A stretch of DNA of 36,631 nt, from NCBI GenBank assembly GCA_029560805.1, contig JAKQKE010000006.1, positions 1 through 36,631 on the forward strand, written 5' to 3'. A program made the translations under genes and the position numbers. A model generated the notes under the pieces. That model was not told where the DNA came from. It did no database searches and was given only the letters and a program-made list of their open reading frames with translations. This DNA comes from Spirochaetota bacterium (lineage in GTDB: Bacteria > Spirochaetota > Spirochaetia > Treponematales > UBA12059). Position 1 is the stretch's first letter. Every line of letters begins with the position of its first letter. This document shows, piece by piece, positions 1 to 19,581 of this stretch.

Positions 1-1641
1 CATCTCCTCGACATATTTATCGGAGGGGTGGATCAAAGCCCTGACCCCTTCGGTCTTCATCTTGGCATCGAGCACATAACCGAGCACACAGATCTGGTCG
101 ATCTCATCGAACAACTGGAATTCGTCCTCGATCTCTTCGGGGAACACGTTCTTGCCGCCCTCGGTGACGATGATGTTCTTGGAGCGGCCAGTGATGAAGA
201 TGAAACCCCGCCTATCGACGTAGCCCAAGTCCCCGGTACGCAGCCATCGGTCATCCGTTATGACCGCTCGGGTTGCTTCCGGAGCGTCGAGGTAGCCGAG
301 CATCATCGAGGGGCTTTGAACCTGGATCTCTCCGACGCCGTCGGGTCCGGGATCGGCTATACGCACAAGCGTCCGCTTGACCGGCAGACCCACCGAGCGG
401 TTGTCCTTGTACTCAGGCAGGTTGACCGCGATGAGCGGCCCGTTCTCGCTCATCCCGTAGCCCTGGACCAGGTTAAAGCCGATAGTGTCGAAGAACTCCG
501 CCGTATCGAGCGCCAGCGGCCCTCCGCCGGCGACGCCGAGCCTGACCGAACCGAGGCCGGCCTTCTTGCGGATGAAGGCGAGGAGGACGCGTCCGGCCGG
601 CACGCGCAGGACCTTGGAGCAGAACCCCGAGACGCCCATCAGGACGCCGATGAGGCCGCGGACCATGGGCTTCAGCTTCTGCACCTCGGCTCGTATGCCC
701 TGCTTGATCTTGTCGAATAGTAGCGGTACGCCAATCACCATGGTCACGCCGGCCTCGCGGATATGCTTGAGGACGACCGACGGGACGATGCGCTCGATGA
801 ACACGATGTCGCCGCCGGCGGCCATCGGCGACAGGAAGGTGCAGGTGGCGGCGTAGGTATGGTGCAGAGGCAGCACCGCGATGAAGACGTCCCGCGTATC
901 GACGTTGAGCGACTGGATCGAGGCGTTGACGTTCGCTATGACCCCGCGGTGGCTTAGGACTATGCCCTTGGCCAGGCCTGTCGTGCCGGAGGTGTAGATG
1001 ATGACCGCGGGTGCGTCACCATCGAGGGCGGCCGGGGCCGGCAGCCCTCGGGCGTCGCGCTCCGCGCTTTTTTCAGGCGCGCCGCCGCTTCCGGCGTCAT
1101 CCGGCGAGCCAAGCTCGAGCCAGCCGTAGCGTTCCTTGGCCCCGGACGCGGCGGCGTCTGGCTTCTCGGCCGGCTTCCGCTCGCCGACGACCGCGGGGAA
1201 TTCGATCGCGAGATCGACCGGCGACTGGACGAGCGCCTCGGCCACCTTCGCCCCGAGCGCCGGTGAGTAGAACAGCGCCCGGCTTCTGGACGCGGCGATG
1301 ATGCCGGCGAGGCCGGCAGCGTCCATCGTCGAGTCCACCGGCACGACGACGAGACCGGCGGCCACGATGCCGATATAGGCGAAACACCACTCGGGCCGGT
1401 TCTCCGCCATCACGCAGACGCGATCGCCGGCGGACAGGCCCTTGGACAGGAGGAACCGCCCGACGGCGTACGATTCGCGGCGGACGTCGGCGTAGGACCA
1501 TACCGTATATGGCGAGCCGGGTTCGGGTTTGGCCTTGACCGCAGGCAAGCCGCCGAACCGGTCGAAGATCGAGTCGAACATCGCCCTGAAATTCGGATAG
1601 TCCCGATCAGGCAGCCTGGAGTATCGTTTCTCTAGATCCAT
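1..1641 (-). CDS. Long-chain acyl-CoA synthetase (AMP-forming), 3' end cut by window edge
   Basis: Member of the ANL (AMP-binding) superfamily, activating a fatty acid to acyl-AMP and then acyl-CoA. 547 residues are visible; the family is usually 600-640 aa, so the C-terminal lid domain lies outside. Seen directly: the P-loop YTSGTTGLAKG at about residues 214-225, GYGMSENGP at about 393-401, TGDLGY near 467 and TGRSKNIIVTEGGKNVFPEE at about 480-500, which are the standard A3, A5, A7 and A8-type motifs. The start ATG at 1641 is preceded by GGAGGT with 3 bases between. It lies 16 bp after pheT on the same strand, so it is probably the last visible gene of a pheS-pheT transcript. Substrate chain length cannot be read from the sequence. 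Confidence 0.93.
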   Translation of the reverse strand, partial: MDLEKRYSRLPDRDYPNFRAMFDSIFDRFGGLPAVKAKPEPGSPYTVWSYADVRRESYAVGRFLLSKGLSAGDRVCVMAENRPEWCFAYIGIVAAGLVVVPVDSTMDAAGLAGIIAASRSRALFYSPALGAKVAEALVQSPVDLAIEFPAVVGERKPAEKPDAAASGAKERYGWLELGSPDDAGSGGAPEKSAERDARGLPAPAALDGDAPAVIIYTSGTTGLAKGIVLSHRGVIANVNASIQSLNVDTRDVFIAVLPLHHTYAATCTFLSPMAAGGDIVFIERIVPSVVLKHIREAGVTMVIGVPLLFDKIKQGIRAEVQKLKPMVRGLIGVLMGVSGFCSKVLRVPAGRVLLAFIRKKAGLGSVRLGVAGGGPLALDTAEFFDTIGFNLVQGYGMSENGPLIAVNLPEYKDNRSVGLPVKRTLVRIADPGPDGVGEIQVQSPSMMLGYLDAPEATRAVITDDRWLRTGDLGYVDRRGFIFITGRSKNIIVTEGGKNVFPEEIEDEFQLFDEIDQICVLGYVLDAKMKTEGVRALIHPSDKYVEEM

Positions 1642-1657: not shown

Positions 1658-3361
1658 TTACAGGAGCGATTCCAGGTCGAGCTCGCAGGCCGCGCAGGGC
1701 ATCGTTATGCCCCAGTTCTCGAGGACGGCCGGATGCACCTCGCCGAACAAGCCGACGGGCTCGCCACCTATCAGTATACGCGCCTGACGGCCGGGAAGGA
1801 ACCTCGGATCGTCCGAGTCGTCGACCGAGTACTCCTCGCCGAGGTAATAGAGCAGGGCCGAGACGACTCCCGCCAACTCGTTGTAGTCGGCCGCCTGGTG
1901 GGCGCACAGGAGGCCGATCCGCTGCCTCGTGGCCGTGCCGTAGTTCCTGGCGTCATCGAGGAAGGCGACCTTGCCGGCCTCGAAGATACGGTGGGGATAC
2001 GGGGCCTTGCTCGACACGGCCTCGGACTGCAGGAGTCCCGGCAGGATAGACGGCCGTACGTACTCGAAATTCTCGGTCATCGGGTTGGAGATCCGGATAA
2101 CGTCGTCGGCCGGTACGTTCATGCGCTCGATGTAGTCCCTGCCGGAGCCGAGGTAGTTGTAGATCATCTCCTGGTAGCCAAGCCCGACCATCACGTCCTT
2201 CGCGCGCCTGGTGAACGACTCTATCGGCGAAAGGCGGCCTATGGTGAAGTCCCGCGGTCGCTCCGGGGCGAAGCTGGCCAGACCGCGGCCTATCATCACG
2301 TCCTCGACGAGGTCGACCGCGTGGATGAAGTCGTCGCGGTACTCGGGCACGGTCGCCCGGACATGCTGCCCATGGGACTCGGCGCGGACGCCCATGCGGG
2401 CGAGCGCCTCGACGACCTGCTCGGGGCCGAAGCTGTCGCCGAGCAGCCTGGAGACGCGACCCGAATCTACCGAGGCCGGCTGCTGGAAGTAGTACGGGAA
2501 GGTGACCGAGCGGCCGAACGGAGTATCGAACCCGTAGTCGACGCGTACCGGACGTATCTCGTAGCCGGCGTCGGAGAAGTCGCAGGCGACGATGCTGGCA
2601 GAGAGGCAGACTGCGGCCATATCGGTGCCGGTGAATTCGACGAGCAGGTCGCGGTCGCCCACCTGGACGGCGCCGATGTCCGCAGAGTTGATGATGGGAG
2701 CCATCGATAAGACGCCGCCGTCGGCGCCCATCAGGATGGGATAGACCGGCGAGCCGGCGATGATGTGGCCGTACTCCTTGCCCTTCGGGTGCTCCGCCGC
2801 GATGCGCCTGAGGGTCATGCTCTCGTCCGACTGCAGCGGTACGAAGCTGACGGCGTCGGGGTCGACGCCCTTATACGCGACCGGCCATGTGATCAGCTCG
2901 ATGCGGTACATGCCCATCGACACGGAGCGGCGCTTGCGGCCGAAGTTGGAGCACAGCTTCTCCTGGGTCTGGATGGCGTCGCGGAGCATCGCGTCGTCGA
3001 TCGCCTTGCCGGAGACGACGAAGGCCGCCATGTAGGGGCGTAGCTCGCGTATCGACTGGTCGACGACGACGCGATAGTCCGCCGGCCTCTGGTCGCCCTC
3101 CCTGGAGAAGAACGGGTACTCGGGAATGCCGCCGCCGAGCCGGATGCGCAACTGGCGCGCGAGGCCGGCGGTCGACCAGAGGTCGGGCCTATTGGTGTCG
3201 TTCAGCTCGATCTTGATGATCCGCTCGTCCGCGGGCCCGGCCAGGTCCCAGGCGTCGAGCTCGGCCTTCGCGGTCTCGAGCGCCGGTTCCAGCTCGGCCG
3301 GATCCATGCGGCGGCCGACGAGGCTGAAGAACAGCTTTTCGTTCACTTCTATCTTAGGCAT
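1658..3361 (-). CDS. pheT: Phenylalanyl-tRNA synthetase beta subunit, archaeal/spirochaete type
   Basis: Beta subunit of the (alpha-beta)2 enzyme that charges tRNA-Phe in the cytoplasm. At 567 aa it is far shorter than the typical bacterial PheT (about 800 aa) and lacks the N-terminal tRNA-binding (EMAP-like) and C-terminal anticodon-binding extensions; this is the archaeal-type architecture that spirochaetes also carry. Recognisable parts are a B3/4-like editing region in the first half, a B5-like region around residues 290-360 and a catalytic-like core with FTRRAKDVMVGLGYQEMIYN and ISNPMTENFEYVRPSILPG. The ATG at 3361 has GGAGA seven bases upstream. It follows pheS by 28 bp on the same strand, as expected for co-expressed subunits. 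Confidence 0.95.
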   Translation of the reverse strand: MPKIEVNEKLFFSLVGRRMDPAELEPALETAKAELDAWDLAGPADERIIKIELNDTNRPDLWSTAGLARQLRIRLGGGIPEYPFFSREGDQRPADYRVVVDQSIRELRPYMAAFVVSGKAIDDAMLRDAIQTQEKLCSNFGRKRRSVSMGMYRIELITWPVAYKGVDPDAVSFVPLQSDESMTLRRIAAEHPKGKEYGHIIAGSPVYPILMGADGGVLSMAPIINSADIGAVQVGDRDLLVEFTGTDMAAVCLSASIVACDFSDAGYEIRPVRVDYGFDTPFGRSVTFPYYFQQPASVDSGRVSRLLGDSFGPEQVVEALARMGVRAESHGQHVRATVPEYRDDFIHAVDLVEDVMIGRGLASFAPERPRDFTIGRLSPIESFTRRAKDVMVGLGYQEMIYNYLGSGRDYIERMNVPADDVIRISNPMTENFEYVRPSILPGLLQSEAVSSKAPYPHRIFEAGKVAFLDDARNYGTATRQRIGLLCAHQAADYNELAGVVSALLYYLGEEYSVDDSDDPRFLPGRQARILIGGEPVGLFGEVHPAVLENWGITMPCAACELDLESLL

Positions 3362-3389: not shown

Positions 3390-4943
3390 CTACAGCTTCG
3401 CCCGCCTGAGGCGCACGTCTTCGATATCGTAGCTGAACAGCTCGCGTAGGTCGTTGAGGCCGAGCGCCATCAGGGCCATGCGGTCGATGCCTATGCCCCA
3501 GGCGAGCACCGGCACGCTGACACCGAGCGGCTCGGTGACCTCCGGCCTGAAGATGCCCGCGCCGCCGAGCTCGAACCAGCCGAGCACCGGGTGCTTGATG
3601 TGCACCTCGACCGACGGTTCGGTGAACGGGAAGTAGCCGGGTACGTACTTGACTTCCTTGGCGCCGGCCACCTCGATGGCGAACATCTCGAGGAAGCCAA
3701 GGAGGGTGCGTAGGCTCACGTCCTCGCCGAGCACGATGCCCTCGGTCTGGTAGAAGTCGGACAGGTGGGTCGCGTCGACCTTGTCGTAACGGAAGCATCG
3801 CGCGATGCCGAAGTACTTGCCCGGCACCGACGCGGTCGGCAGCTGCCTGGCCGATAGCACCGTACCCTGGCTGCGCAGCACGAGGCGCTTGGTGAACTCG
3901 CGGTCGAAGCCGTAGCGCCAGCCGCGGGAGCCGGTGGCCCCGCCGTTCTCGTGCGTGGTCGCGACGCGCGAAAGGTAGGGCTCCTCGATAGCCTTGGCCT
4001 TGGTCGGCTCGGAGACGTAGTAGACGTCGTGAATGTCGCGGGCCGAGTGGAACTGGGGCATGAACAGAGCGTCGCCGTTCCAGAACTCGGTCTCGACGAG
4101 GCCGCCGTCGAACTCCTCGAAACCGAGCGAGACGAGCTTGTCCTTGACGCTCTCCAGGAACTGCACGTAGGGGTTGCGGCGCCCCGGGATCAGGCGCGCC
4201 GGCCGGCTCTTGATGTTGTACGACCTGAACGCGGCGCCCTTCCACGAGCCGGACTCGAGCAGCTCCTGCGTGACGGCGCCCAGCTCATCGCCGGACACGC
4301 CCTCTTCGCGTAGCAGGGCCGAGACGGCCGCGGCATCGGCCGTGAGGGCCCAGGTGACTGTCTCGCGCTCGGCAACCTTGAAGGCCGCGTCGGCCGCCCC
4401 GCGCTTCTTGGCCACCTCGGCCATCAGCGCGCGCTCGGCGTCCCCGAGGGTGCCTTCGTCCAGTATCCCGCCGGCGGCGGCGGCCTTGGCCAGCAGGGCC
4501 TTGAGCGCGGCCGCCCGGAGCGACTTGGACGCGTCGACGAGCGAGACGAGCTTGTCCTGCCCCATCGCCAGGACGCCTTCCTTGGAAAGGCGGCCGTAGG
4601 CCGAGCCGGCGTCCTTCTGCTCGATGCCGACGGCCTGGCAGATGGTAGGCATCGCGGCCGGACCGTGCTGAGCCAGCCACGCGACCATGCGCTCCTCGGG
4701 CGAGCCCGCCTCGAGCCACTCGCGGCCAAGCGCGGTCAGCTCGTAGACGTTGCGCGACGAGCGGCCCGTCTCGGCGGCCAGGCCCTTGGCGCTCAGCCAG
4801 GCCTGGGCTTGGTTGGCGTGCCCCTCGACGTAGCCGAGTTCCGACGCGAGCCTGGCCGCGTCGAGGCCGTCTCCCGGCGCGTATCTGAGCAGTACCTTTA
4901 TCTCGAGCGGGTGCAAGCCCTTGAGGAACGTTCGTGGATCCAT
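3390..4943 (-). CDS. pheS: Phenylalanyl-tRNA synthetase alpha subunit, archaeal/spirochaete type
   Basis: Catalytic alpha subunit, 517 aa from the chosen start. The N-terminal about 180 residues are winged-helix-like (LHPLEIKVLLRYAPGD..., ELTALGREWLEAG), as in archaeal PheS; the class II core follows, with NPYVQFLESVKDKLVSLGFE, motif 2 (ATTHENGGATGSRGWRY and a following RLVLRSQGT) and motif 3 near the end (ELGGAGIFRPEVTEPLG, LAWGIGIDRMAL). The frame stays open 49 codons further upstream, but the ATG at 4943 has GGAGAAGG just before it and gives the conserved MDPRTFLKGLHPLE start, so the longer form is rejected. Gap to the upstream 988-aa gene is 59 bp; both read leftward. Recognition as alpha subunit is very firm. 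Confidence 0.95.
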   Translation of the reverse strand: MDPRTFLKGLHPLEIKVLLRYAPGDGLDAARLASELGYVEGHANQAQAWLSAKGLAAETGRSSRNVYELTALGREWLEAGSPEERMVAWLAQHGPAAMPTICQAVGIEQKDAGSAYGRLSKEGVLAMGQDKLVSLVDASKSLRAAALKALLAKAAAAGGILDEGTLGDAERALMAEVAKKRGAADAAFKVAERETVTWALTADAAAVSALLREEGVSGDELGAVTQELLESGSWKGAAFRSYNIKSRPARLIPGRRNPYVQFLESVKDKLVSLGFEEFDGGLVETEFWNGDALFMPQFHSARDIHDVYYVSEPTKAKAIEEPYLSRVATTHENGGATGSRGWRYGFDREFTKRLVLRSQGTVLSARQLPTASVPGKYFGIARCFRYDKVDATHLSDFYQTEGIVLGEDVSLRTLLGFLEMFAIEVAGAKEVKYVPGYFPFTEPSVEVHIKHPVLGWFELGGAGIFRPEVTEPLGVSVPVLAWGIGIDRMALMALGLNDLRELFSYDIEDVRLRRAKL

Positions 4944-5002: not shown

Positions 5003-7969
5003 TCAATCGGAGGACGGGCGTATGACGCCATGCCCCCGCCCCCCGTCCATTAGGATCTCCAGTTCCCGTTCGGCGCGGACGAGCGAGCAATGCGCCGTAC
5101 GCGCGACGAGCGGCAGGGCTGCCAGAGCGTCCCAGTCGACGAAGGACGATAGCGAGCCGTAGGCAGCGGAGAAGTACCCGATGTTCATCGCGGTAACGTT
5201 ATGGAAGAAATGGCTGCCGAGCGACGAGTCTACCCTGAAGTCCGGGAGGTCGGCCTCGACGATGGCCTTGGCGTTCGATATCTGAGCGAAATTAACCGGC
5301 ACCCCGAGCGAATGGTCGCGCGTACCCCATCGTCCTGGACCGACGAGGGCGTAAGGGCGTCCCTCGGCCTTCAGCCTCTCGTTCAGGCCGGCTATCTCGG
5401 CCGCGACGGCCCCGCTCTCCGCTGGGTTCCAGCGCGTGGGGTCGACGTACACGATATCGCGGACGCCGCGGACGCGGCCGTTGCCCATGCAGCGCTCGCT
5501 CGCCACGAGGCACTGACCCCGCACGATGGCGCCGAGGTCGACCGAGACCCGGTCCGATCGCTGGATCAGCGGCTTGATCTGGAGCATGTAGAAGACCGGC
5601 GCCCCGCCCGGCCCGTCGTCGCTGACGGCGTATTCGATCTCCACCGGTATACCCATGCTCTTGGTGCCGACCTCGAGGACGGCCTCGACGACCTCGGCGA
5701 AGGGGAACGAGTCGTACTTGAGCACCGGGGCGAAGTCGACGATGCGCGGCCCCCTGGCGGAGACGCCCGGCTCCAGCCTGTCGTCCTCGACGCTCCAGGT
5801 GCTGGCGACCATCGCGAAGCCGGGATCGGCTTCGGCCTCGGCGACGTCGAGCCGCGATAGCGTGGCTTCCTCGCCCTGAGTCAGGTCGAAGTCGAGCCGC
5901 TCCATGTCGAGGGCGTAGAACCAGCGCTGGGTGCCGCCGAGGCCCCGGCCCGGCGGTACGACGTCGAGCTTGGGGTAGCGGGGACAGAAGCGATGGGCTT
6001 CGCCGCCCTCGACGACGTACGGCCCGAGTCCGAGGGCGGCCACGCAGAGACCGTCGTCGGGCTTGAGGTACGAGACGGGATAGTAGTTATAGGACTGGGC
6101 CGTGCCGGATATCAGCGGGTAGTACCAGCGCCCGCGCCTGGTGCCGACCAGCTCCTGGATCACGACCGCCATACGCTCCTCCTCGATCTTGTAGCCGGAC
6201 GCGTCGAAGTAGGCGCGGGCGGTCGTCGAATAGAGGCTGGCGTAGATGAGCCGGACGGCGTCGCAGAGCTGCGAAAGGCGCCGCTCGGGGTCGGGATGGG
6301 CGTTCGGGATCAGGAAGGTATCGTAGACGCCAGAGAACGGCACCATGAGCATGTCCTCGAACAGGCCGGAGGACCGTACGGCGAGCGGCTTATCGGTCGA
6401 GGCCAGGTAGGTCCGCAACCTGGAGACCAGCTCCGGGTCGAGCGGGTGCGCCAGGAAGGCGGCGCGAACGTCGCCCTCGGGGGCGGAGTACCACGAATAG
6501 CCCCAGAGGCCGTGCTGGTCCATGAAGCGCTCGAACTCGTCTATGCCTATGAACGTCGTGTACGGCAGCCTGATGTCGACGCCGCCGCCCCGGTTCGGGA
6601 AGGCCAGGTTGTCGATAAGGCTCTTGATGAAGGCCAGTCCACGGCCTTTGCCGCCGACCGAGCCGCCGCCGAGCCTGACCAGGCCACGGTCGCCGAAATT
6701 GGCGCCGATGGCCGGGATGACGCCGCGCGCCTTGCCGCGCTGCAGGTCGTCGAGGGCTCGGCAGATGAAGTCGCGAAGCTCGGTCGGCCCGGCGAAATCC
6801 TCGGGCAGGTAGTTGCGGATGATGCGGGCGAAGCGAACCTCGCCCCTGGCCATCAGCCAGGCGGAGAAGTGGTTGCGGGTCGCGTGGTACAGGAGGCACT
6901 CGGGCGGTACGGCCCGCATCTTCTCGACGAATTCCTCCATGTTCCTGGCCCTGGACAGTTCGACGCCCTCGGGCGTCCTGAACACGAAGGGGCCGAAGCC
7001 GAGCTGGGCCTGGAAGAACGCGCCGAGTTCCCTGGCCAGGGTGTTCGAGTTCTTATCTGCAAAAGACGCGCCGAGCGCGTACGCCTTGTCGCGATTGGTC
7101 GGCTCGCTCGACTGGATCAGCACCGGCAGGTCTGGCTTGCGGGCCTTGGTCATCTCGAGGAAGCGGAAGCCGGCCTCGGGATCCTCGAGCCCTTCGCGCC
7201 CGTAGCGCACGTCCGAGATGACGGTCAGGAGGTAGGGCTCGTAACGCTCGTAGAGAGTCAGCGCCTCCTCGTAGCTCGTCGCGAGCAGGACCTTGGGACG
7301 ACCGCGCATCCTCAGGATCTTGTAGGTCTCGACGACCCGTTCCTCCTCGACCAATTGCTGCGTCTGCTTCATCACGACCGAGTACAGGAGCGGCAGGTAG
7401 CGCGAGTAGTAGCGTATCGAGTCCTCGATGAGCAGCACGACCCGTACCATGCCGACCCTGGTGTCGTTATCGACGTTCCAGAGGTCCTCGACGTACTTGA
7501 TCATGCCGATGAAGAGCTTCGAATAGCCGTTCCAGACGAACACGCGGTCGATCACATCGCGACAGGCCTTCGACCCGGCGTCGAGGCCGGAGAGGCTCGA
7601 GTTGTTCATCGCGAGCAGCAGTATCGGCACGGACGGCCAGAGGGCCTTCATCCTGGAGGCGAGGGCCAGCGGCACGTCGAAGTCGAGGCCGGCCATCAGG
7701 ATGACCATGTCGTAGCCGCCGGAGCCGAACAGCTCCATGGCCGACTCGGGTGTATAGGCGCAGGACACCCTCGGGGCGGTGGTCAGGTTGAGCTTGAAGA
7801 ACTCGCCGTAGATCTGCTCCGACAGGGCGCCGTCGCTTTCGAGCACGAAGGCGTCGTAGAGGCTGGCGACGAGCAGGATCTCGCGCACGCGGTGGCGCAT
7901 CAGGTCGTGGAAGGTGTCGCGCTCGTGGCGCTCCCGGTCGTACGCGGCGACCAGCTCGTTGAAGTACAT
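5003..7969 (-). CDS. Receiver-domain protein fused to PEP/pyruvate-binding (PPDK N-terminal) domain
   Basis: 988 aa, cytoplasmic (no signal peptide). Residues about 28-140 look like a degenerate receiver domain: where the phospho-Asp is expected, the strand reads YDMVILMAGLD. Residues about 178-320 form a second receiver-like unit with acidic pair ED, phospho-acceptor candidate D253 (VISDVRYG), IQSSEP and a Lys in FADKNS. From about 430 on it is a PPDK/PEP-synthase N-terminal ATP-binding domain: GGGSVGGKGRGLAF (K441), VRSSGLFEDMLMVPFSGVYD (R532) and an MLQIKPLI strand near the end of the ATP-grasp part. A C-terminal unit has VGPGRWGTRDHSLGVPV and SLGSHFFHN. The phosphohistidine swivelling domain and the PEP-binding TIM barrel of true PEP synthases are absent, so glycolytic function is unlikely; a two-component-regulated ATP-dependent phosphotransferase is my inference. 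No better start exists: upstream codons up to the in-frame stop contain no ATG, GTG or TTG. Confidence 0.85.
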   Translation of the reverse strand: MYFNELVAAYDRERHERDTFHDLMRHRVREILLVASLYDAFVLESDGALSEQIYGEFFKLNLTTAPRVSCAYTPESAMELFGSGGYDMVILMAGLDFDVPLALASRMKALWPSVPILLLAMNNSSLSGLDAGSKACRDVIDRVFVWNGYSKLFIGMIKYVEDLWNVDNDTRVGMVRVVLLIEDSIRYYSRYLPLLYSVVMKQTQQLVEEERVVETYKILRMRGRPKVLLATSYEEALTLYERYEPYLLTVISDVRYGREGLEDPEAGFRFLEMTKARKPDLPVLIQSSEPTNRDKAYALGASFADKNSNTLARELGAFFQAQLGFGPFVFRTPEGVELSRARNMEEFVEKMRAVPPECLLYHATRNHFSAWLMARGEVRFARIIRNYLPEDFAGPTELRDFICRALDDLQRGKARGVIPAIGANFGDRGLVRLGGGSVGGKGRGLAFIKSLIDNLAFPNRGGGVDIRLPYTTFIGIDEFERFMDQHGLWGYSWYSAPEGDVRAAFLAHPLDPELVSRLRTYLASTDKPLAVRSSGLFEDMLMVPFSGVYDTFLIPNAHPDPERRLSQLCDAVRLIYASLYSTTARAYFDASGYKIEEERMAVVIQELVGTRRGRWYYPLISGTAQSYNYYPVSYLKPDDGLCVAALGLGPYVVEGGEAHRFCPRYPKLDVVPPGRGLGGTQRWFYALDMERLDFDLTQGEEATLSRLDVAEAEADPGFAMVASTWSVEDDRLEPGVSARGPRIVDFAPVLKYDSFPFAEVVEAVLEVGTKSMGIPVEIEYAVSDDGPGGAPVFYMLQIKPLIQRSDRVSVDLGAIVRGQCLVASERCMGNGRVRGVRDIVYVDPTRWNPAESGAVAAEIAGLNERLKAEGRPYALVGPGRWGTRDHSLGVPVNFAQISNAKAIVEADLPDFRVDSSLGSHFFHNVTAMNIGYFSAAYGSLSSFVDWDALAALPLVARTAHCSLVRAERELEILMDGGRGHGVIRPSSD

Positions 7970-8062: not shown

Positions 8063-8632
8063 CTACGAGGCCGTAGCTATGCCCCTGGCGAAGACGCGGG
8101 CGAAGGCGACGACGGCCGAGCCGAGGTCAGCGATGCCGCCGAGCCTGACGCGATGGAACGCGAAACCGAAGAGGCACTCGACGAACAGCGACGCCAGCTC
8201 GGCCGGGTCGCCGAACGCCGCGCCGCGGCCGACGGCGCCGGCGAGGTACGGGGAGACGGCGGCGCGCATGATGTCGACCTGGCCGCGCAGCGTGTCGTCG
8301 ATATCGGCGAACTCTTCCTTGATATCCTTGATGCTCATACTGACGATCTTATGGTTGCCGGAGAAGAACGCGACGAAGGTCCGGGCGAACGCGACGAGGT
8401 CGCCCTCCAGCTCGTCGCGGAGGCTTATCGCCCGTATCGCGTCGTCGGGCTTGATATAGTACGCCGCGAACACCTCGCGGAACAGCCGTTCCTTCGAACC
8501 GAACAGCCTGAACACGGTGACCTCGTTGACCGCGGCGGCCTCGGCGATCGCCTTGGTCGTTACGGCCGAATAGCCACGGGCGGAGAATAATTCCAAAGAG
8601 GCTTCGAGTATCCTGTCCCTCGCGCTCACCAT
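8063..8632 (-). CDS. TetR-family transcriptional regulator
   Basis: 189 aa one-component repressor-type regulator. The N-terminal about 55 residues hold the TetR helix-turn-helix (RDRILEASLELFSARGYSAV, then TKAIAEAAAVNEVTVFRLFG and SKERLFREVF); the rest is an all-helical ligand/dimerisation domain with no recognisable specificity. It is divergent from the MATE exporter gene, 101 bp apart, with an inverted repeat between the two promoters, so it very probably controls the exporter and itself. The ATG at 8632 lies only a few bases from the predicted transcription start (minus -10 at 8647-8642) and no Shine-Dalgarno precedes it, so the mRNA may be leaderless. The next codon is GTG and could also serve as start. 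Ligand unknown. Confidence 0.92.
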   Translation of the reverse strand: MVSARDRILEASLELFSARGYSAVTTKAIAEAAAVNEVTVFRLFGSKERLFREVFAAYYIKPDDAIRAISLRDELEGDLVAFARTFVAFFSGNHKIVSMSIKDIKEEFADIDDTLRGQVDIMRAAVSPYLAGAVGRGAAFGDPAELASLFVECLFGFAFHRVRLGGIADLGSAVVAFARVFARGIATAS

Positions 8633-8641
8633 GACCGTGCG

Positions 8642-8670
8642 ACTATATGATACAGACCGCGATAATGCAA
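8642..8670 (-). promoter_or_regulatory. Predicted sigma-70 promoter of tetR
   Basis: On the minus strand: -35 TTGCAT at 8670-8665, 17-base spacer, -10 TATAGT at 8647-8642. Predicted transcription start is about 8635, three bases from the ATG. The -35 lies inside the left arm of the 8665-8684 inverted repeat. Confidence 0.65.
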
Positions 8671-8684
8671 GTAAGCGCTTGCAT
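8665..8684. promoter_or_regulatory. Probable TetR operator (inverted repeat)
   Basis: Perfect inverted repeat with 7-bp arms and a 6-bp centre: ATGCAAG-TAAGCG-CTTGCAT. It overlaps the -35 boxes of both divergent promoters, the position expected for a TetR repressor blocking both genes. Binding itself is inferred. Confidence 0.7.
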
Positions 8685-8707
8685 CATACCGCAATTTTCG
8701 CTATGGT
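8679..8707 (+). promoter_or_regulatory. Predicted sigma-70 promoter of the MATE gene
   Basis: -35 TTGCAT at 8679-8684, 17-base spacer, -10 TATGGT at 8702-8707. The -35 is within the right arm of the operator, so repressor and polymerase should compete. Confidence 0.65.
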
Positions 8708-8733
8708 ACCGCGAACCGATAAGGAACCAAGCG

Positions 8734-10086
8734 ATGAACGAACCTCACAAGACCGATTTCCTCGGGCGGGACGCCATCTTCCCGCTCCTCCTCAAGATGG
8801 GCATACCGGCCGCGGTAGGCATGCTGGTCAACGCCCTCTACAACGTCGTCGATACCATCTTCGTAGGCCACGGCGTAGGGCCGCTCGCGATAGCGGCTCT
8901 ATCGATCGTCTTCCCGCTGCAGATGATAGTCTCGGCGGTAGCCCAGGCCCTCGGCATCGGCGCCGCCTCGATCGTCTCCAGGCGCCTCGGAGAGAAACGG
9001 CCAGACGCCGCCGCCGCCGCGATGGGTACCGCCTATGCGGCGGTCATGCTCGTCACGGCAGTCCTCGTAGCGTTGGTGTTCCTGTTCACGCGACCCATCC
9101 TAGCCTTCTTCGGGGCCAGCGAGACCGTCATGCCCTACGCACTCAGCTACACCCGCATCGTCGCGGCCGGCTTCTTCTTCTTCTCGATGTCGATGTGCGC
9201 GAGCAACCTGATACGGGCGGAGGGTAACGCCAAGGCGTCGATGCTCGGCATGCTGCTCGGCGCCGGCCTCAACACGATACTCGACCCGATCTTCATATTC
9301 GGGTTCGGCATGGGCGTGGAGGGAGCGGCCGTGGCGACGGTGATCAGCCAAGTCGTCTCGTGCGCCTACTTGTTCTCCCTGTACTTCAGGAAGAAGAGCC
9401 ATGTACCGATCGGCGTGGCCGACCTGCGGATCGAGCCGTCGGTATTGCGCGATGAAGCCCTGCTCGGCGTGCCCGCTTTCGTCCAGAGCGCCGGCATGAG
9501 CCTCCTGGCCCTGCTGATCAACACTACCCTCGGCAGGTACGGCGGCGACCTCGCGATCACGACCTACGGCATGAACCATAAGATCCTGTCTATCGTCATC
9601 ATGCCGATACTCGGCATCATCCAGGGCTTCCAGCCCATCGCCGGATATAACTACGGCGCCAAGCGCTTCGACCGGGTCAGGCAGAGCCTCAAGACCACCG
9701 TACTGACGGCGCTGGCCGTGTCGCTGGCCGGCTACGCGTTCATGATGCTCGCCCCGCGCGCGGCCATCGGCCTGTTCACCGCCGACGCCGAGCTGATCGC
9801 CTCGAGCGCGCGGGTGCTACGGGTCATGGTGCTGTTCATCCCGCTCGCGTCGCTCCAGATAACCGGCTCGACCTACTTCCAGGCCGTCGGCAAGAAGACC
9901 CAGTCGATGATGCTCGGCCTCTCGAGGCAGTTCCTGCTGCTGATACCGATCGTGCTGATCCTGCCGCTGTTCATCGGCGTCGACGGAGTCTGGCTGGCCT
10001 TCCCGATAGCCGACCTCGCCTCGACGGTGATTACGCTGGCCCTGCTCGCCCGCGAGCTGCGCCACCTCGAGAGCCGATCAGCGTAG
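8734..10086 (+). CDS. MATE-family multidrug/cation antiporter
   Basis: 450 aa inner-membrane exporter of the MATE family (Na+ or H+ driven drug efflux). It starts in the typical way (FLGRDAIFPLLLKMGIPAAV, then VNALYNVVDTIFVGHGVGPL), and two homologous halves of six hydrophobic helices each can be followed, the second opening near VPAFVQSAGMSLLALLINTT. Length is usual for the family. I chose the ATG at 8734 because AAGGAA lies just upstream and the residues match MATE N-termini; a start 29 codons earlier would fall inside the predicted promoter. The 3' end overlaps the convergent histidine kinase gene by 9 bp. Probably controlled by the divergent TetR. Substrate unknown. Confidence 0.95.
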   Translation: MNEPHKTDFLGRDAIFPLLLKMGIPAAVGMLVNALYNVVDTIFVGHGVGPLAIAALSIVFPLQMIVSAVAQALGIGAASIVSRRLGEKRPDAAAAAMGTAYAAVMLVTAVLVALVFLFTRPILAFFGASETVMPYALSYTRIVAAGFFFFSMSMCASNLIRAEGNAKASMLGMLLGAGLNTILDPIFIFGFGMGVEGAAVATVISQVVSCAYLFSLYFRKKSHVPIGVADLRIEPSVLRDEALLGVPAFVQSAGMSLLALLINTTLGRYGGDLAITTYGMNHKILSIVIMPILGIIQGFQPIAGYNYGAKRFDRVRQSLKTTVLTALAVSLAGYAFMMLAPRAAIGLFTADAELIASSARVLRVMVLFIPLASLQITGSTYFQAVGKKTQSMMLGLSRQFLLLIPIVLILPLFIGVDGVWLAFPIADLASTVITLALLARELRHLESRSA

Positions 10087-11442
10087 CGGCGCGTCGATAC
10101 GGAAGGCGCTCCCCTCCCCGGGCCGGGAGCGTACCGACAGCTCCCAGCCGTGCGACTCCACGACGCCCTTGACCACCGACAAGCCGAGCCCCATGCCCTG
10201 TTCTCGGCGGGAGCCCGAGCCGCGGTAGAACGGGTCGAAGATGAGCGGCAGCTCGCCCTCGCCGATGCCGGGGCCGTCGTCGGATACCTCGATCGCTACG
10301 CGGTCGCCGCCATCAGCGCCGCGCTCGAGCCAGGCCGCGACGCGCACGAGCCCGCCTGGCTCGGTGTAGCGTAGCGCGTTATTGACGATGTTCTCAAGCG
10401 CCCTCGTGATCAGGCGTTCGTCGAAGGGCACGGCCAGGTCGTCGGGCAGGGCTATCGACGACTCCGCCCGGCGCCCGAGCAGCACGGCGTCCTCCTCGAG
10501 CCTACGGCAGAGGCCGCGCAGGAAGGGCGCCAGCGGCGCGCGCTCGAGGCGTTCCCGCCACTCGCCCGAGTCGACTCTGACGAAGTCTATCAGGTCATCG
10601 ATCATACCGGCCAACTGGTCCACCTTCGAGCCGATGATGCCGACGTAGCGCTCGCGGGTATCTGCGCCGTCGTCCATGCCGTCGCCTATCGCCTCGGCGT
10701 AGCCCTTGATCAGCGCGAGCGGCGTCTTGAGGTCGTGGGTCACGCCCATGATGAAGCGAGAGCGCCTGGCCAGGTCGTCCTTGAGCGCGAGCCGCATCGC
10801 GTTGAGCGACGAGGCGAGCGAGGTGATCTCGTTCGAGCCTCGGACCTCGACGTTCCGCTCCAGCTCCCCGGCGGCTATGCGTCGGGTCGCGGCGTCGAGC
10901 GCCAGGACCGACTGGGTGATGGACCTGGCGATCAGTACGGCCATCCCCGCGGAGAACAGGAAGAGTGCCGCGAGCAGTACCGCGAACGACGAGAAGAAGC
11001 GGCTGAACGGGTTCGGCGGCCGGAGGCGCTCCGAACGCTCTATCCTGGTCAGGACGAGCAGGCCTCCGTCGCTCGATCGCACGGGCGAGTCGATCTGGTA
11101 GAAGTAGTCGCCGCTCGTCTCCCGCATGTAGCCGAGCAGGGCCTCGTCGGAGACGAGGTCGCCGACCTTATGCCCGCTTATCGTCGAGAAGGCGACGCGG
11201 CGCTCCGGGTCGAGCACGGTGAACTCCATCGTCGGCGGCTTGTGGGCCATGTAGTCGGCGAGGCGCTCCCAGGAGGCCCGGTCGAACGAGCCGCCGGCCA
11301 GCGCGGCCACCTCGTCGTAGCCGGGCACCTGGACGACCGACGACTCGCGTCCCCCCTGCATCGCGAGGAGGCCGGCGAACGCGAGCAGCGGCACGACGAC
11401 GATGCCGAACACGAGGATGTAGAACTGGCTGCGTATCTTCAT
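10078..11442 (-). CDS. Sensor histidine kinase (HAMP, HisKA, HATPase_c)
   Basis: 454 aa membrane sensor kinase. TM1 spans residues about 7-28 and TM2 about 151-172, enclosing a periplasmic sensor region of roughly 120 residues. HAMP follows (about 173-222), then HisKA with the phospho-acceptor His236 (THDLKTPLALIKGYAEAI) and HATPase_c with N box ENIVNNALRYTEPGG, G1 SDDGPGIGEGELPLIFDPFY and G2 GMGLGLSVVKGVVESHG. The ATG at 11442 overlaps the response regulator's stop (ATGA, 4 nt) and is preceded by GGAGGCGGGCG; a 55-codon longer reading frame exists but has no support. Partner is the adjacent OmpR-type regulator. Signal unknown. Confidence 0.95.
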   Translation of the reverse strand: MKIRSQFYILVFGIVVVPLLAFAGLLAMQGGRESSVVQVPGYDEVAALAGGSFDRASWERLADYMAHKPPTMEFTVLDPERRVAFSTISGHKVGDLVSDEALLGYMRETSGDYFYQIDSPVRSSDGGLLVLTRIERSERLRPPNPFSRFFSSFAVLLAALFLFSAGMAVLIARSITQSVLALDAATRRIAAGELERNVEVRGSNEITSLASSLNAMRLALKDDLARRSRFIMGVTHDLKTPLALIKGYAEAIGDGMDDGADTRERYVGIIGSKVDQLAGMIDDLIDFVRVDSGEWRERLERAPLAPFLRGLCRRLEEDAVLLGRRAESSIALPDDLAVPFDERLITRALENIVNNALRYTEPGGLVRVAAWLERGADGGDRVAIEVSDDGPGIGEGELPLIFDPFYRGSGSRREQGMGLGLSVVKGVVESHGWELSVRSRPGEGSAFRIDAPLR

Positions 11443-12170
11443 CGCCCGCCTCCGTCCGGCCCGCGTTCCGGATCGAGGGTGAACCGGTAGCCCATGCCGT
11501 AGACCGTCTCGATGTGCCGCGGCGACGAGGGGTCGGCCTCGAGCTTCCTGCGTAGCCGCTGGATATAGACGGCCACCGCGGTCACGTCGCCGTAGGCGTT
11601 CTTCCATACCGACGAGTAGATGGTCTCCGGGTCGAGGGGCCGGCCGGGGTTGGCGGCCAGGAACGCGAGCACCGCGTACTCCTTGGCCGATAGAGCGACG
11701 CGCTCCTCTCCTCGCCTGAGCACGCAGGCCTCCAGGTCGAGCGAGTACGGGCCGAAGCGTATCGACCGCGCGTCCCTCGCCGACGGGGCCTCCTGGGCGC
11801 GCCTGAGCATCGCTCGCACACGGGCCACGAGTACCCGCGGCGAGAACGGCTTGGTCACGAACTCGTCGGCGCCGTGGCCGAGGCCCGCGATGATGTCCTC
11901 GTCGGCGTCCCTGGCCGATACGATCAGCACGGGGGCCGCCCCGGCCTTGCGGTACTCTCCGAGGAACTCGAAGCCGTCCATGCCTGGCAGGTTGATGTCG
12001 AGGATGATGATATCCGGCGAGAACGCCTCGGCGCCGACGGCCCGGAGCATGGCGAGGGCGGACTCGGCGGACTCGGCCCGCCGGACCTCCATGCCTTCCT
12101 TGGACAGGTACAGAGCCACGAGGTCCGACAGCTCCGCCACGTCTTCGATGATCAGTACCTTCGCCTTCAT
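11439..12170 (-). CDS. OmpR/PhoB-family response regulator
   Basis: 243 aa from the chosen start. The receiver domain (about residues 3-115) has the acidic pair ED, phospho-Asp in PDIIILDINLPGMDG (D58 in this numbering), LIVSARD and the Lys of FVTKPFSPR. The C-terminal winged helix (about 140-235) shows LSAKEYAVLAFLAANPGRPL and YIQRLRRKLEADPSSPRHIE followed by TVYGMGYRF, the typical trans_reg_C signature. A GTG two codons upstream (12176) could also start the gene; the ATG at 12170 has GGGGTGA at good spacing. Translationally coupled to the kinase. It diverges from the tolC/RND operon with 191 bp between, so control of that efflux operon is likely but inferred. Confidence 0.94.
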   Translation of the reverse strand: MKAKVLIIEDVAELSDLVALYLSKEGMEVRRAESAESALAMLRAVGAEAFSPDIIILDINLPGMDGFEFLGEYRKAGAAPVLIVSARDADEDIIAGLGHGADEFVTKPFSPRVLVARVRAMLRRAQEAPSARDARSIRFGPYSLDLEACVLRRGEERVALSAKEYAVLAFLAANPGRPLDPETIYSSVWKNAYGDVTAVAVYIQRLRRKLEADPSSPRHIETVYGMGYRFTLDPERGPDGGGR

Positions 12171-12317
12171 GCTCACCCCACGGTTCGGAGTATACGCGCG
12201 GCCCGAGCGCCGGGCAACGCCGAGCGGCGGCGATGCCTCCGCCTATAACAAAAAATTATGTGCCTTTCATGGCGCGTCTATAGGCCGCGAACCGGTTTGG
12301 ACGTATGCTCAGGCTCG

Positions 12318-12344
12318 ACGATAGGGTATCCTCGGAACGATAGG
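12318..12344. promoter_or_regulatory. Direct repeat upstream of efflux operon, candidate regulator site
   Basis: The octamer ACGATAGG occurs at 12318-12325 and 12337-12344, 19 bp start to start, 18 bp before the tolC-like start codon. OmpR-type regulators bind direct repeats, but 19 bp is not their usual period, so this is weak evidence. No convincing sigma-70 promoter was found in the 191-bp gap. Confidence 0.25.
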
Positions 12345-12361
12345 ATGACATGGAGGGATAG

Positions 12362-13627
12362 ATGCGAATACCGATAACGCTGGCCGTGGCCCTGCTCGCG
12401 CTCGCGGCCACCGCCGACGCGAGCGCCCAGGATGCTTTCAACATCGACGAGGCCGTCTCGATCGCGCTCGAGGGCAATAGGAGCCTGGCCAGGGCCAAGA
12501 TCGATAGGGAGGCCGCTTCCAGGGCCCTGTCGCTGGCGTGGAACGACCTCGTACCGTCCCTATCGGTCGGCGCCTCGGCCAGCGCTAGCGACGGCCGGGG
12601 AAGCGTCGGCGGCTCCGCGACCGCGAGCCTGAGCCTGTCCGCCGAGTCGCTCCATGCGCGGTCCCAGGCGGAGCTGGCCTACGTGACGGCCGAGCTGGCG
12701 TACGAGACGGCCAGGCGCGACGTCGAGCTGTCGGTACGGACCGCCTTCTACGCGCTGCTCTTGAAGCAGGAGAAGATACGCCTGGCGGAGCAGAACGCGG
12801 CGACGGCCAGGAAGAGCTACGAGCAGGCCGAGGCCAGGCGGAAGGCCGGCGTGGCCCCGGAGCTCGACGCGCTGTCGGCCCTCGTCAGGCTCGAGAAGCT
12901 CGGGCCTGCGCTCGAGAGCGCCAGGATGGACTACGAGACGTCGCTCGACTCGTTCAGGCAGCTGCTCGGCCTCGAGCCCGGCGCGCCCGTGACGCTGACC
13001 GGCTCGCTCGACGCGTCGCCGGTAGCGGTACGGGCCGCCGCCGCCGTCGATCCCGCGGCCGCCGCCGTCTCGTCGCCGTCGGTTAGAACCATGGAGCGAT
13101 CCAAGGCCAGCGCGGAGGCCAGCCTCGCCAAGGCCAGGCGCGCGGTGTACTCGCCGTCGCTGAGCCTATCGGCCTCGTATAGGCCGAGTCGTACCGACGC
13201 GTCCCTGAGCGGCTCGGGCTCCCTGTCGGCCTCGGTCAGCCTGGGCCTCGACGATATGCTGCCCTGGTCGGATGCGAGGCTCGCCGTAGCCTCGGCCGAG
13301 GACGCCGTGGCCAAGATCGACAGCCAGCTGGCCGAGGCTTCGGCCAAGGCCGTCTCGGGCGCCGCCTCACTCCAGCGCACGATAGCCCAGGCGGCCAAGT
13401 CGCTCGAGACGGGGCGCCTGAGCGAGTCGCTGGCCGCGCGGACCTACGCCCTGACCGAGGAGGCCTACCGCTTCGGAACCAAGGATCTCCTGTCGCTCCA
13501 GAGCGCCCAGGACAGTCTGGCCGAAGCCAGGGTATCCGTATCGGAAAGCGCGTACGCGCTGATCGTCGCTCTACTGAACCTTGAATACGCGCTGGGCGAG
13601 CCGTTCGGCTCGCTCGGGAGGGATTGA
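12362..13627 (+). CDS. TolC-like outer membrane efflux protein
   Basis: 421 aa. Signal peptide at residues 1-23 (MRIPITLAVALLALAATADA, cleavage near ASA-QD). The mature part is a duplicated, Ala/Leu/Ser-rich coiled-coil protein of the outer membrane efflux (OEP) family: FNIDEAVSIALEGNRSLARA, then long helices (AEQNAATARKSYEQAEARRK, AGVAPELDALSALVRLEKLG) and the second repeat near SPSVRTMERSKASAEASLAK. It would form the outer-membrane/periplasmic channel of the tripartite pump encoded by the next two genes. GGAGGG lies at 12352-12357 before the ATG. Its stop codon is followed 2 bases later by the fusion-protein start. Family membership is secure; specificity is not. Confidence 0.93.
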   Translation: MRIPITLAVALLALAATADASAQDAFNIDEAVSIALEGNRSLARAKIDREAASRALSLAWNDLVPSLSVGASASASDGRGSVGGSATASLSLSAESLHARSQAELAYVTAELAYETARRDVELSVRTAFYALLLKQEKIRLAEQNAATARKSYEQAEARRKAGVAPELDALSALVRLEKLGPALESARMDYETSLDSFRQLLGLEPGAPVTLTGSLDASPVAVRAAAAVDPAAAAVSSPSVRTMERSKASAEASLAKARRAVYSPSLSLSASYRPSRTDASLSGSGSLSASVSLGLDDMLPWSDARLAVASAEDAVAKIDSQLAEASAKAVSGAASLQRTIAQAAKSLETGRLSESLAARTYALTEEAYRFGTKDLLSLQSAQDSLAEARVSVSESAYALIVALLNLEYALGEPFGSLGRD

Positions 13628-13629
13628 AC

Positions 13630-14613
13630 ATGAGGAAACGCAACCTAGCCTTACTCGCGCTGTTCGCGCTCGCCATCGCGGCGGTCGTCGTCGTGCCGAA
13701 GCTAGCCGGCTCAGGGAGCCAGGCGGCCGCGATGCCACCCGGGGCAAGGCCGACGAGCGGCGCCGGCCCCCGTCCTTCCGGGGCGCCGGGCCGAGGCGCC
13801 GCGGTAGCCACCGAGTTCTCGGTGCGCACCGTCAGGGCCGAGCGGACGACCCTGCAGGACTATATCGAGACGAACGGCGACGTCGTCGTCGACTCCACCG
13901 TCAAGGTCTACCCCTACGTCGCCGGCAAGCTGGTATCGTCGAAGGCGTCCCTCGGATCCCGCGTGACGAAGGGCCAGACGATAGCCGAGATCGACCCCTC
14001 GACGCCCGGCTCCGCCTATACGCTCAACGCGGTCTACGCGCCGATAAGCGGCACGGTGACCTCGCTGCCGGTATCGGTCGGCTCGACCGTCGGTACCGCC
14101 ACGGCCATAGCCGAGATAGGCTCGATCGACGAGCTCGAGGTCGAGGCCAGAATACCGGAGCGCTACGTCGGCGTGCTCAAGGTGGGGCTCAGGGCGACGG
14201 TATCGCTCGAGGCCTACCCCGGCGTCAGCTTCGCCGCGACCGTGTCGAGCGTGTCGCCGGTCGTGGACTCGACCTCGAGGACGAAGACCATCCGCCTGGC
14301 CTTCGACCGCTACGACGAGCGCGTCAACGCCGGCATGTTCGCCAAGCTCAGGCTCGACACGGTGGCCTACCCCGACTGCCTGGCCGTCGCGTCTGGCGGC
14401 GTGCTCCAGGATTCGACCGGCCATTACCTCTTCGTCGTCAAGGACGGCTCGACCGTCGAGAAGCGTCGCGTCGAGGTCGGCGTCGACATCGACGGCCTCG
14501 CGGCGATCACCGACGGACTGTCCGAGGGCGAGCTCGTCGTCGTCGAGGGCGCGTCGGTGCTAGCCGACGGCGCCAGGATCAAGGATATTTCGTCTCCGGG
14601 GTCCGGCACATGA
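13630..14613 (+). CDS. RND efflux membrane fusion (periplasmic adaptor) protein
   Basis: 327 aa HlyD/AcrA-type adaptor bridging the inner-membrane RND pump and the TolC-like channel. One N-terminal hydrophobic segment (residues about 6-24) is an anchor or uncleaved signal; there is no lipobox Cys. Biotinyl-lipoyl-like halves are visible at KVYPYVAGKLVSSKASLGSR and at VYAPISGTVTSLPVSVGSTV, with a very short linker instead of a long hairpin; beta-barrel and membrane-proximal regions follow (VEARIPERYVGVLKVGLRAT; SGGVLQDSTGHYLFVVKDG). The ATG at 13630 has GGGAGGG 7 bases upstream; a TTG at 13624 is possible but overlaps the tolC stop. The 3' end overlaps the RND gene by 4 nt (ATGA). Confidence 0.93.
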   Translation: MRKRNLALLALFALAIAAVVVVPKLAGSGSQAAAMPPGARPTSGAGPRPSGAPGRGAAVATEFSVRTVRAERTTLQDYIETNGDVVVDSTVKVYPYVAGKLVSSKASLGSRVTKGQTIAEIDPSTPGSAYTLNAVYAPISGTVTSLPVSVGSTVGTATAIAEIGSIDELEVEARIPERYVGVLKVGLRATVSLEAYPGVSFAATVSSVSPVVDSTSRTKTIRLAFDRYDERVNAGMFAKLRLDTVAYPDCLAVASGGVLQDSTGHYLFVVKDGSTVEKRRVEVGVDIDGLAAITDGLSEGELVVVEGASVLADGARIKDISSPGSGT

Positions 14614-18169: not shown

Positions 18170-19516
18170 TCACACGAGGCCCTGGGCGATCATCGCGTCG
18201 GCTACCTTCTTGAAGCCGGCGATGTTCGCGCCCACGACGTAGTTGCCGTCGGCGCCGAATTCCTTGGCCGCCTCGAGGCAGGTATTGTGGATGTTGACCA
18301 TGATGGCATGCAGCCTCTGGTCGACTTCCTCGGCCGTCCAGGCGAGGCGCATCGAGTTCTGGCTCATCTCGAGGCCGGAGGTGGCGACGCCGCCGGCGTT
18401 CGCTGCCTTGCCCGGGCCGAAGGGGATCTTCTTCTCGACGAAGAGCTTCCAGGCCTCGGGGGTGCAGCCCATGTTCGAGACCTCGACGACGTACTTGACG
18501 CCATTCTTGACGAGCATCTGGGCGTCGTCGCCTGACATCTCGTTCTGGATGGCGCAGCACATGGCGATGTCGACCTTCTGCTCCCAGGGCCTCTTGCCGG
18601 CGAAGAACTTGGCGTTCGGGAACTTCTTGGCGTAGGTCTCGCAGGAGTTGCGGTTGATGACGAGCATTTCCTCGAGGTACTTGTGCTTCTCGGCGGTGGA
18701 GATGCCGTCGGGATCGTAGATGTAGCCGTCCGGGCCGGAGATCGTGACGACCTTAGCGCCGAGCTCGCTGGCCTTGATGCAGGTGCCCCAGGAGACGTTG
18801 CCGAAGCCGGAGACGGAGACGGTCTTGCCCTTGAGCGTGTCGCCCTTGGCCTTGAGCATCTCGTTCAGGAAGTACACGGCGCCGAAGCCGGTAGCCTCGG
18901 GGCGGATCAGCGAGCCGCCGAAAGACAGGCCCTTGCCGGTCAGCACGCCGGTGAACTCGTCGCTCAGGCGCTTGTACTGGCCGAACATGTAGCCGACCTC
19001 GCGGCCGCCCACGCCGATGTCGCCAGCGGGCACGTCGGTATCGGGGCCGACATACTTCTGAAGCTCGGTCATGAAGCTCTGGCAGAAGCGCATGATCTCG
19101 TTGTCGCTCTTGCCGTTCGGGTCGAAGTCGGCGCCGCCCTTGCCGCCGCCCATCGGGAGGCTCGTGAGGCTGTTCTTGAAGGTCTGCTCGAAGCCGAGGA
19201 ACTTGAGGGTGGAGAGCGTCACCTTCGGGTGGAAGCGGATACCGCCCTTGTACGGGCCGATGGCGCTGTTGAACTGAACGCGATAGCCGCGATTGACGAT
19301 GTACTCGCCCTTGTCGTTCATCCAGGGCACCCTGAACATGATGGTGCGCTCGGGCTCGACGATGCGCTCGAGGATGCGCTGGGCCTTGTACTTGGGGTTC
19401 TTCTCGATAAGCGGCTCGATCGACTCGAGGACTTCCTCGGCGGCCTGAAGGAACTCGGTCTCCCACGGCGCGCGGGCTTTGAGGCCATCGAGGACCTCGC
19501 GGATATAAGCGTTCAT
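18170..19516 (-). CDS. gdhA: Glutamate dehydrogenase (hexameric, NADP-type)
   Basis: 448 aa, the length of family I hexameric GDH. It makes glutamate from 2-oxoglutarate and ammonium using NAD(P)H. Seen: substrate-site region FNSAIGPYKGGIRFHPKVTL (K90), catalytic region PMGGGKGGADFDPNGKSD (K126), VGGREVGYMFGQYKRL and the Rossmann loop VSGFGNVSWGTCIKASELGA. NADP preference follows the family, not a residue I can prove. Start ATG at 19516 has AAAGGAGGGCGA directly before it; a 20-codon upstream extension runs into the 5' leader and is rejected. Monocistronic: own promoter at 19610-19582 and terminator on the other side. Confidence 0.97.
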   Translation of the reverse strand: MNAYIREVLDGLKARAPWETEFLQAAEEVLESIEPLIEKNPKYKAQRILERIVEPERTIMFRVPWMNDKGEYIVNRGYRVQFNSAIGPYKGGIRFHPKVTLSTLKFLGFEQTFKNSLTSLPMGGGKGGADFDPNGKSDNEIMRFCQSFMTELQKYVGPDTDVPAGDIGVGGREVGYMFGQYKRLSDEFTGVLTGKGLSFGGSLIRPEATGFGAVYFLNEMLKAKGDTLKGKTVSVSGFGNVSWGTCIKASELGAKVVTISGPDGYIYDPDGISTAEKHKYLEEMLVINRNSCETYAKKFPNAKFFAGKRPWEQKVDIAMCCAIQNEMSGDDAQMLVKNGVKYVVEVSNMGCTPEAWKLFVEKKIPFGPGKAANAGGVATSGLEMSQNSMRLAWTAEEVDQRLHAIMVNIHNTCLEAAKEFGADGNYVVGANIAGFKKVADAMIAQGLV

Positions 19517-19581
19517 TCGCCCTCCTTTAATAGAGCTGACAGACACGATGCTCGGTACGGACACTGGTCCGTCCATGGAAC

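Follow-up and report, generated by a model that had tools for sequence, protein, structure and literature searches.

Response regulators in which a receiver is fused to the ATP-binding domain of PPDK (REC-PPDK) have been catalogued in Bacteroides and Heimdallarchaeota (PMC5847659), and PPDK has been listed as an effector of Asp-less receivers (PMC4395418). The available excerpts of these two sources list the architecture only, and give it no phosphohistidine-like C-terminus, no link to glutamate dehydrogenase (GDH) and no function; none of the three was found in the literature we searched either. The 988 aa protein described here contains the same fusion and is clearly of the same kind. Its architecture is already known, while the swivel-like C-terminus and the GDH linkage appear to be new. 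PEP synthase and PPDK carry an ATP-grasp and a swivelling domain in the same relative order as this protein, which lacks their TIM barrel, has receivers added and ends in a domain that is unrecognisable by sequence. Rifampin phosphotransferase is likewise a dikinase without a PEP barrel, but has a drug-binding domain between its ATP-grasp and swivelling domains. In the 988 aa protein these are contiguous, the ATP-grasp ending near residue 805 and the C-terminal domain starting near 806, and no rifampin-binding domain was found.

The window, meaning the whole stretch of 36,631 nucleotides that was analysed, is from contig JAKQKE010000006.1 of a Spirochaetota bacterium (GCA_029560805.1), whose draft genome comprises 3.3 Mb in 304 contigs. 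The gene for the REC-REC-PPDK_N-swivel protein lies on the reverse strand at 5003..7969, and was described by ORF call, Pfam, alignment and an AlphaFold2 model. Among the matches listed, its closest named relatives are from Spirochaetota. The closest relative of all in these matches is 96% identical across all 988 residues, and homologues that cover most or all of it at 36-83% identity come from many phyla, as the earlier note on this DNA had stated. With such relatives 5003-7969 is not a chance open reading frame. Full-length or nearly full-length homologues in the matches listed represent at least Spirochaetota, Bacteroidota, Ignavibacteria, Acidobacteriota, Riflebacteria, Cloacimonadota, Desulfobacterota-like lineages, Planctomycetota and Asgard-type archaeal bins, some of these sources being metagenome bins in which contamination is possible. 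Plasmid records gave full-length matches in a few Bacteroidota replicons only, and a search of viral contigs gave none.

The AlphaFold2 model, built from a 79-sequence alignment, has a mean pLDDT of 87 and contains two receiver folds, at residues 28-163 and 175-327; the earlier note had singled out residues 28-140 and 178-320 for structure prediction, and its description of one degenerate and one intact-looking receiver is borne out. Receiver 1 (7481..7888, reverse strand; Z about 14.7 to solved receivers) has Met92 at the phospho-Asp position, which is Met in 62 and Thr in 14 of the 79 homologues (76/79 together). Receiver 2 (6989..7447, reverse strand; Z about 14.6) has the full set expected of a response regulator, namely an acidic pair (E182, D183), a phospho-Asp (D253), a Ser/Thr (S287) and a Lys (K306) in a receiver fold, and E182, D253 and K306 are invariant in the 79 homologues. 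Pfam Response_reg matches residues 217-301 below threshold. The suggestion of two-component control is supported. PleD-type proteins, which were among the top Foldseek matches, likewise have tandem receivers with one degenerate. In PleD the output is a GGDEF domain and the intact receiver comes first, whereas in the REC-PPDK protein it is the second. A helical linker follows at residues 328-428 (6686..6988, reverse strand), with a weak, sub-threshold resemblance to DUF5752, a family of which no mention was found in the literature searched.

Residues 429-805 (5555..6685, reverse strand) form a PPDK-type ATP-grasp domain, identified by PF01326, a structure match, alignment to the genome's own PPDK, and conservation. 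Pfam PPDK_N (PF01326) covers 437-807 with an E-value of 1e-28, and the best structural match of this half is rifampin phosphotransferase (Z 26.9 over 282 residues). In the alignment K441 falls on the lysine of the GGKG motif in the host PPDK, and K441, R532, E777, E779 and Q797 are invariant in the 79 homologues. The PPDK_N domain with catalytic Lys and Arg that marks PEP synthase and PPDK is therefore present (PF01326, K441, R532), and the intact-looking ATP-binding half that had been read from K441 and R532 is supported. The PEP/pyruvate TIM barrel (PF02896), previously judged absent, has no Pfam match and no unassigned stretch of the 988 aa is large enough to hold it.

The C-terminal domain, residues 806-988 (5006..5554, reverse strand), carries the motifs GPGRWG and SxG[ST]HFF. 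It has no match in the Pfam scan, in which PPDK_N was found and Response_reg fell below threshold; PF00391 in particular is missing. Its sequence profile showed no similarity to those of 17 true swivelling domains (hhalign probability under 2%), and Foldseek with this domain alone gave nothing significant. When folded alone, however, it reaches a pLDDT of 93.6, and the solved structures that it resembles most are phosphohistidine domains, at Z 5.8-7.5. These are headed by the C-terminal PEP-utiliser domains of pyruvate kinase (3t05, Z 7.5; 2e28, Z 7.0), followed by enzyme I-Ntr (6.7), PPDK 379..510 (6.4), enzyme I and rifampin phosphotransferase 755..865. Most lower matches (aconitase, chaperonin apical domain, LD-carboxypeptidase, PA domain) share the same broad swivelling beta/beta/alpha fold. 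The whole model aligns over 418..987 with PPDK 1dik 6..511, over 420..987 with PEP synthase 2ols 4..467, and over 428..986 with rifampin phosphotransferase 5hv3 7..866. The swivelling-fold assignment comes from VIA-align and these whole-model alignments, Z values of 6-7.5 being middling. Within SxG[ST]HFF, His920 (codon 5210..5212, reverse strand) is invariant in the 79 homologues and is the first residue of a helix (920-927) that follows a strand in the AlphaFold2 model. The His of the GGxTSH motif in true phosphohistidine domains is placed likewise, at a helix start after a strand, although the -2 residue differs from the usual TSH motif in being Gly.

Residues 806-988 are thus probably a very divergent phosphohistidine-type swivelling domain, the likeness being structural only, with His920 as candidate phospho-acceptor. 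The earlier note held that the protein has no phosphohistidine domain, and named a C-terminal one as something that would refute its reading; the structural likeness comes near to this, although sequence profiles show none, and with a swivel-like C-terminus (Z 5.8-7.5) and an invariant His920 the claim is probably wrong. Given this C-terminus with its histidine and no PEP barrel, the protein probably represents a dikinase 'half' under receiver gating, one that could load its own His and brings no acceptor domain.

Directly downstream of the REC-PPDK gene are pheS (3390..4940, NF003210), probably cotranscribed with it in this lineage, and pheT of archaeal type (1658..3361, TIGR00471), both on the reverse strand. 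The only GDH gene of the host genome (a single genome match, PF00208 and PF02812) lies on the same strand at 18170..19576, 10.2 kb from REC-PPDK. Between them, at 8063-17711, are genes for TetR, MATE, a histidine kinase, an OmpR-type regulator, an outer membrane efflux protein and an RND pump. The histidine kinase (10078-11607) was set aside as cognate kinase since it has its own OmpR-type regulator (11439-12176), and no conserved histidine kinase was seen among the recurrent neighbour families of REC-PPDK loci. In a related locus (L155) the order REC-PPDK-pheS recurs beside GDH; there the REC-PPDK and GDH genes are adjacent, versus separated by the efflux block in the window.

Clustering of neighbour genes in the fetched loci identified GDH as the dominant partner of REC-PPDK, within about 8 kb in 33 loci from Bacteroidota, Ignavibacteria, Spirochaetota, Cloacimonadota, Desulfobacterota and archaea; the second recurrent neighbour was 2-oxoacid:ferredoxin oxidoreductase (12 loci). 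Arrangements vary (divergent, convergent, GDH first, GDH last), and together with the distance between the phyla this argues against a single inherited block. GDH was found within 12 kb of the REC-PPDK gene in 36 of 54 genomes against 0.85 expected, a significance that is overstated because the genomes are phylogenetically non-independent. The distance was counted from the C-terminal domain, which leaves the genome of the window just outside the cutoff. The other 18 of the 54 have no GDH within 12 kb, contig breaks accounting for some. As a control, genes for PEP-utilizers_C proteins (true PPDK, PEP synthase or enzyme I) in the same genomes had GDH within 12 kb in 0 of 53. GDH itself was present in 58 of the 60 genomes searched. 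Spirochaete relatives mostly have GDH on the REC-PPDK contig, and in one (G010) it is directly adjacent, in the order GDH, REC-PPDK, pheS. One genome from Bacteroidales (G135) has its REC-PPDK gene directly downstream of a GDH gene, in convergent orientation. Ignavibacteria and Chlorobi loci (L093, L095, L113) have GDH and REC-PPDK genes alternating in repeats, which suggests paired paralogues.

With the C-terminal domain as query, relatives without receivers came to light. Two of them (579 aa in L193, 581 aa in L192) consist of the ATP-grasp and C-terminal domains only, and their genes directly follow GDH. Proteins of 862-894 aa with an unrelated N-terminus, KaiC-like by eye, adjoin GDH in L154 and G068, and relatives of 769-1058 aa sit inside GDH clusters in several loci. 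Proximity to GDH, shared by relatives that have no receivers or a different N-terminus, thus goes with the catalytic pair, and receivers are one among several N-terminal add-ons to it. In every one of ten proteins, which represent four architectures, K441, R532, the acidic E779, Q797, GxGRWG and G[ST]HFF with its His920 are retained. Two further genes were observed at these loci: one for an NrpR-type nitrogen regulator beside GDH and a divergent PPDK protein (L154:7163-8179, forward strand), and one for a GDH-cluster PPDK relative with a C-terminal nucleotidyltransferase domain (Polbeta/NTP_transf_2; L193:4024-7200, reverse strand).

What computation shows is the domain composition, conservation at the ATP site, a swivel-like fold that carries an invariant His, the lack of a third catalytic domain and the GDH linkage. 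On account of that linkage, control of GDH, perhaps by phosphorylation, is the likeliest function, and we give about an even chance to the protein being a response regulator with a two-domain, dikinase-type phosphotransferase output that controls GDH. A histidine kinase would phosphorylate receiver 2 at D253, while receiver 1 would serve in dimerisation or as an adaptor. Phosphorylation of D253 would free the ATP-grasp domain for the swivelling C-terminal domain, and ATP would be converted to AMP with formation of phospho-His920, by analogy with PEP synthase and PPDK. The protein itself lacks a PEP/pyruvate or drug-binding domain, and the phosphate would pass to an outside acceptor, most likely GDH (the candidate acceptor) or a GDH-bound factor, so that GDH activity shifts with nitrogen or energy state.

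A 1996 paper by Baggio and Morrison, which PMC4539542 cites, reportedly found that GDH activity is affected by genes located downstream of gdhA in Bacteroides, and a 1987 study is said to have described reversible inactivation of GDH. The REC-PPDK protein is a candidate for both the trans-acting factor and the inactivation. Because its gene recurs beside that of GDH, it is a strong candidate for the missing switch of ammonia assimilation in Bacteroides and relatives. More tentatively, and at somewhat less than an even chance, we propose a new mode of post-translational control in which a receiver-gated ATP-grasp/phosphohistidine half phosphorylates GDH, this protein is the trans-acting factor of Bacteroides GDH, and the GDH-linked pair is reused with other N-termini. 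If phosphate does pass to GDH, PPDK-type chemistry would serve signalling instead of metabolism. With GDH as a genomic neighbour in both bacteria and archaea, a long-listed fusion gains a concrete, testable role in nitrogen assimilation. The proposal concerns abundant gut bacteria, with the gene in 55 of 60 sampled Bacteroidales genomes, often in two copies, one of which may carry an N-terminal PAS domain.

The linkage could instead reflect a shared pathway and not direct modification. The protein might be a metabolic kinase that passes the His920 phosphate to a small metabolite at the glutamate/2-oxoglutarate node, with GDH a pathway neighbour and not the target. Small molecules are what its dikinase relatives phosphorylate (PEP synthase, rifampin phosphotransferase), and the oxidoreductase genes that adjoin REC-PPDK in 12 loci would fit. 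We nevertheless consider this unlikely: the 988 aa hold no substrate-binding domain, receiver control looks regulatory, and the 579-581 aa relatives, with two catalytic domains only, directly follow GDH. We likewise doubt that the protein is a non-catalytic ATP/ADP sensor that holds nucleotide in its ATP-grasp domain and contacts GDH directly through its C-terminal domain, without phosphotransfer. A C-terminal domain too divergent for recognition by sequence is compatible with that, as is a Lys in 49 of 79 homologues at the position equated with R337 of PPDK, but none of the 79 homologues departs from His920 or from the remaining catalytic residues of the ATP-grasp, and four architectures keep them, which would be unusual for a pseudoenzyme.

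A candidate phosphohistidine and a competent receiver in one chain also allow a self-contained phosphorelay from His920 to D253, within one protein or a dimer, that replaces a classical histidine kinase. Relatives without receivers retain the catalytic pair, we know of no precedent for a swivelling domain that donates phosphate to the Asp of a receiver, and we regard such a relay as very improbable. Least credible is the version in the earlier note, of a protein without a phosphohistidine domain (PF00391 is indeed missing from its Pfam scan) that donates its phosphate to a free-standing phosphohistidine protein, since the C-terminus is swivel-like with an invariant His920 and no such free protein was found in the host genome; a separate acceptor survives from that version, and the linkage points to GDH.

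The four PF00391 domains of the genome are all in large multidomain proteins, namely PPDK, enzyme I, a PPDK-like protein and a PPDK-phosphoglycerate kinase fusion. The fusion (L123:891-4976, forward strand, contig C171) has 1361 aa and joins phosphoglycerate kinase to PPDK_N and a phosphohistidine domain of the PEP-utilizers family. Another protein, of 879 aa (L124:738-3377, forward strand, contig C227), is a PPDK homologue with phosphohistidine and PEP-barrel domains, in which the ATP-binding domain is reduced to a small remnant that scores below threshold; PEP-utilizers_C frames of similar length recur in related genomes.
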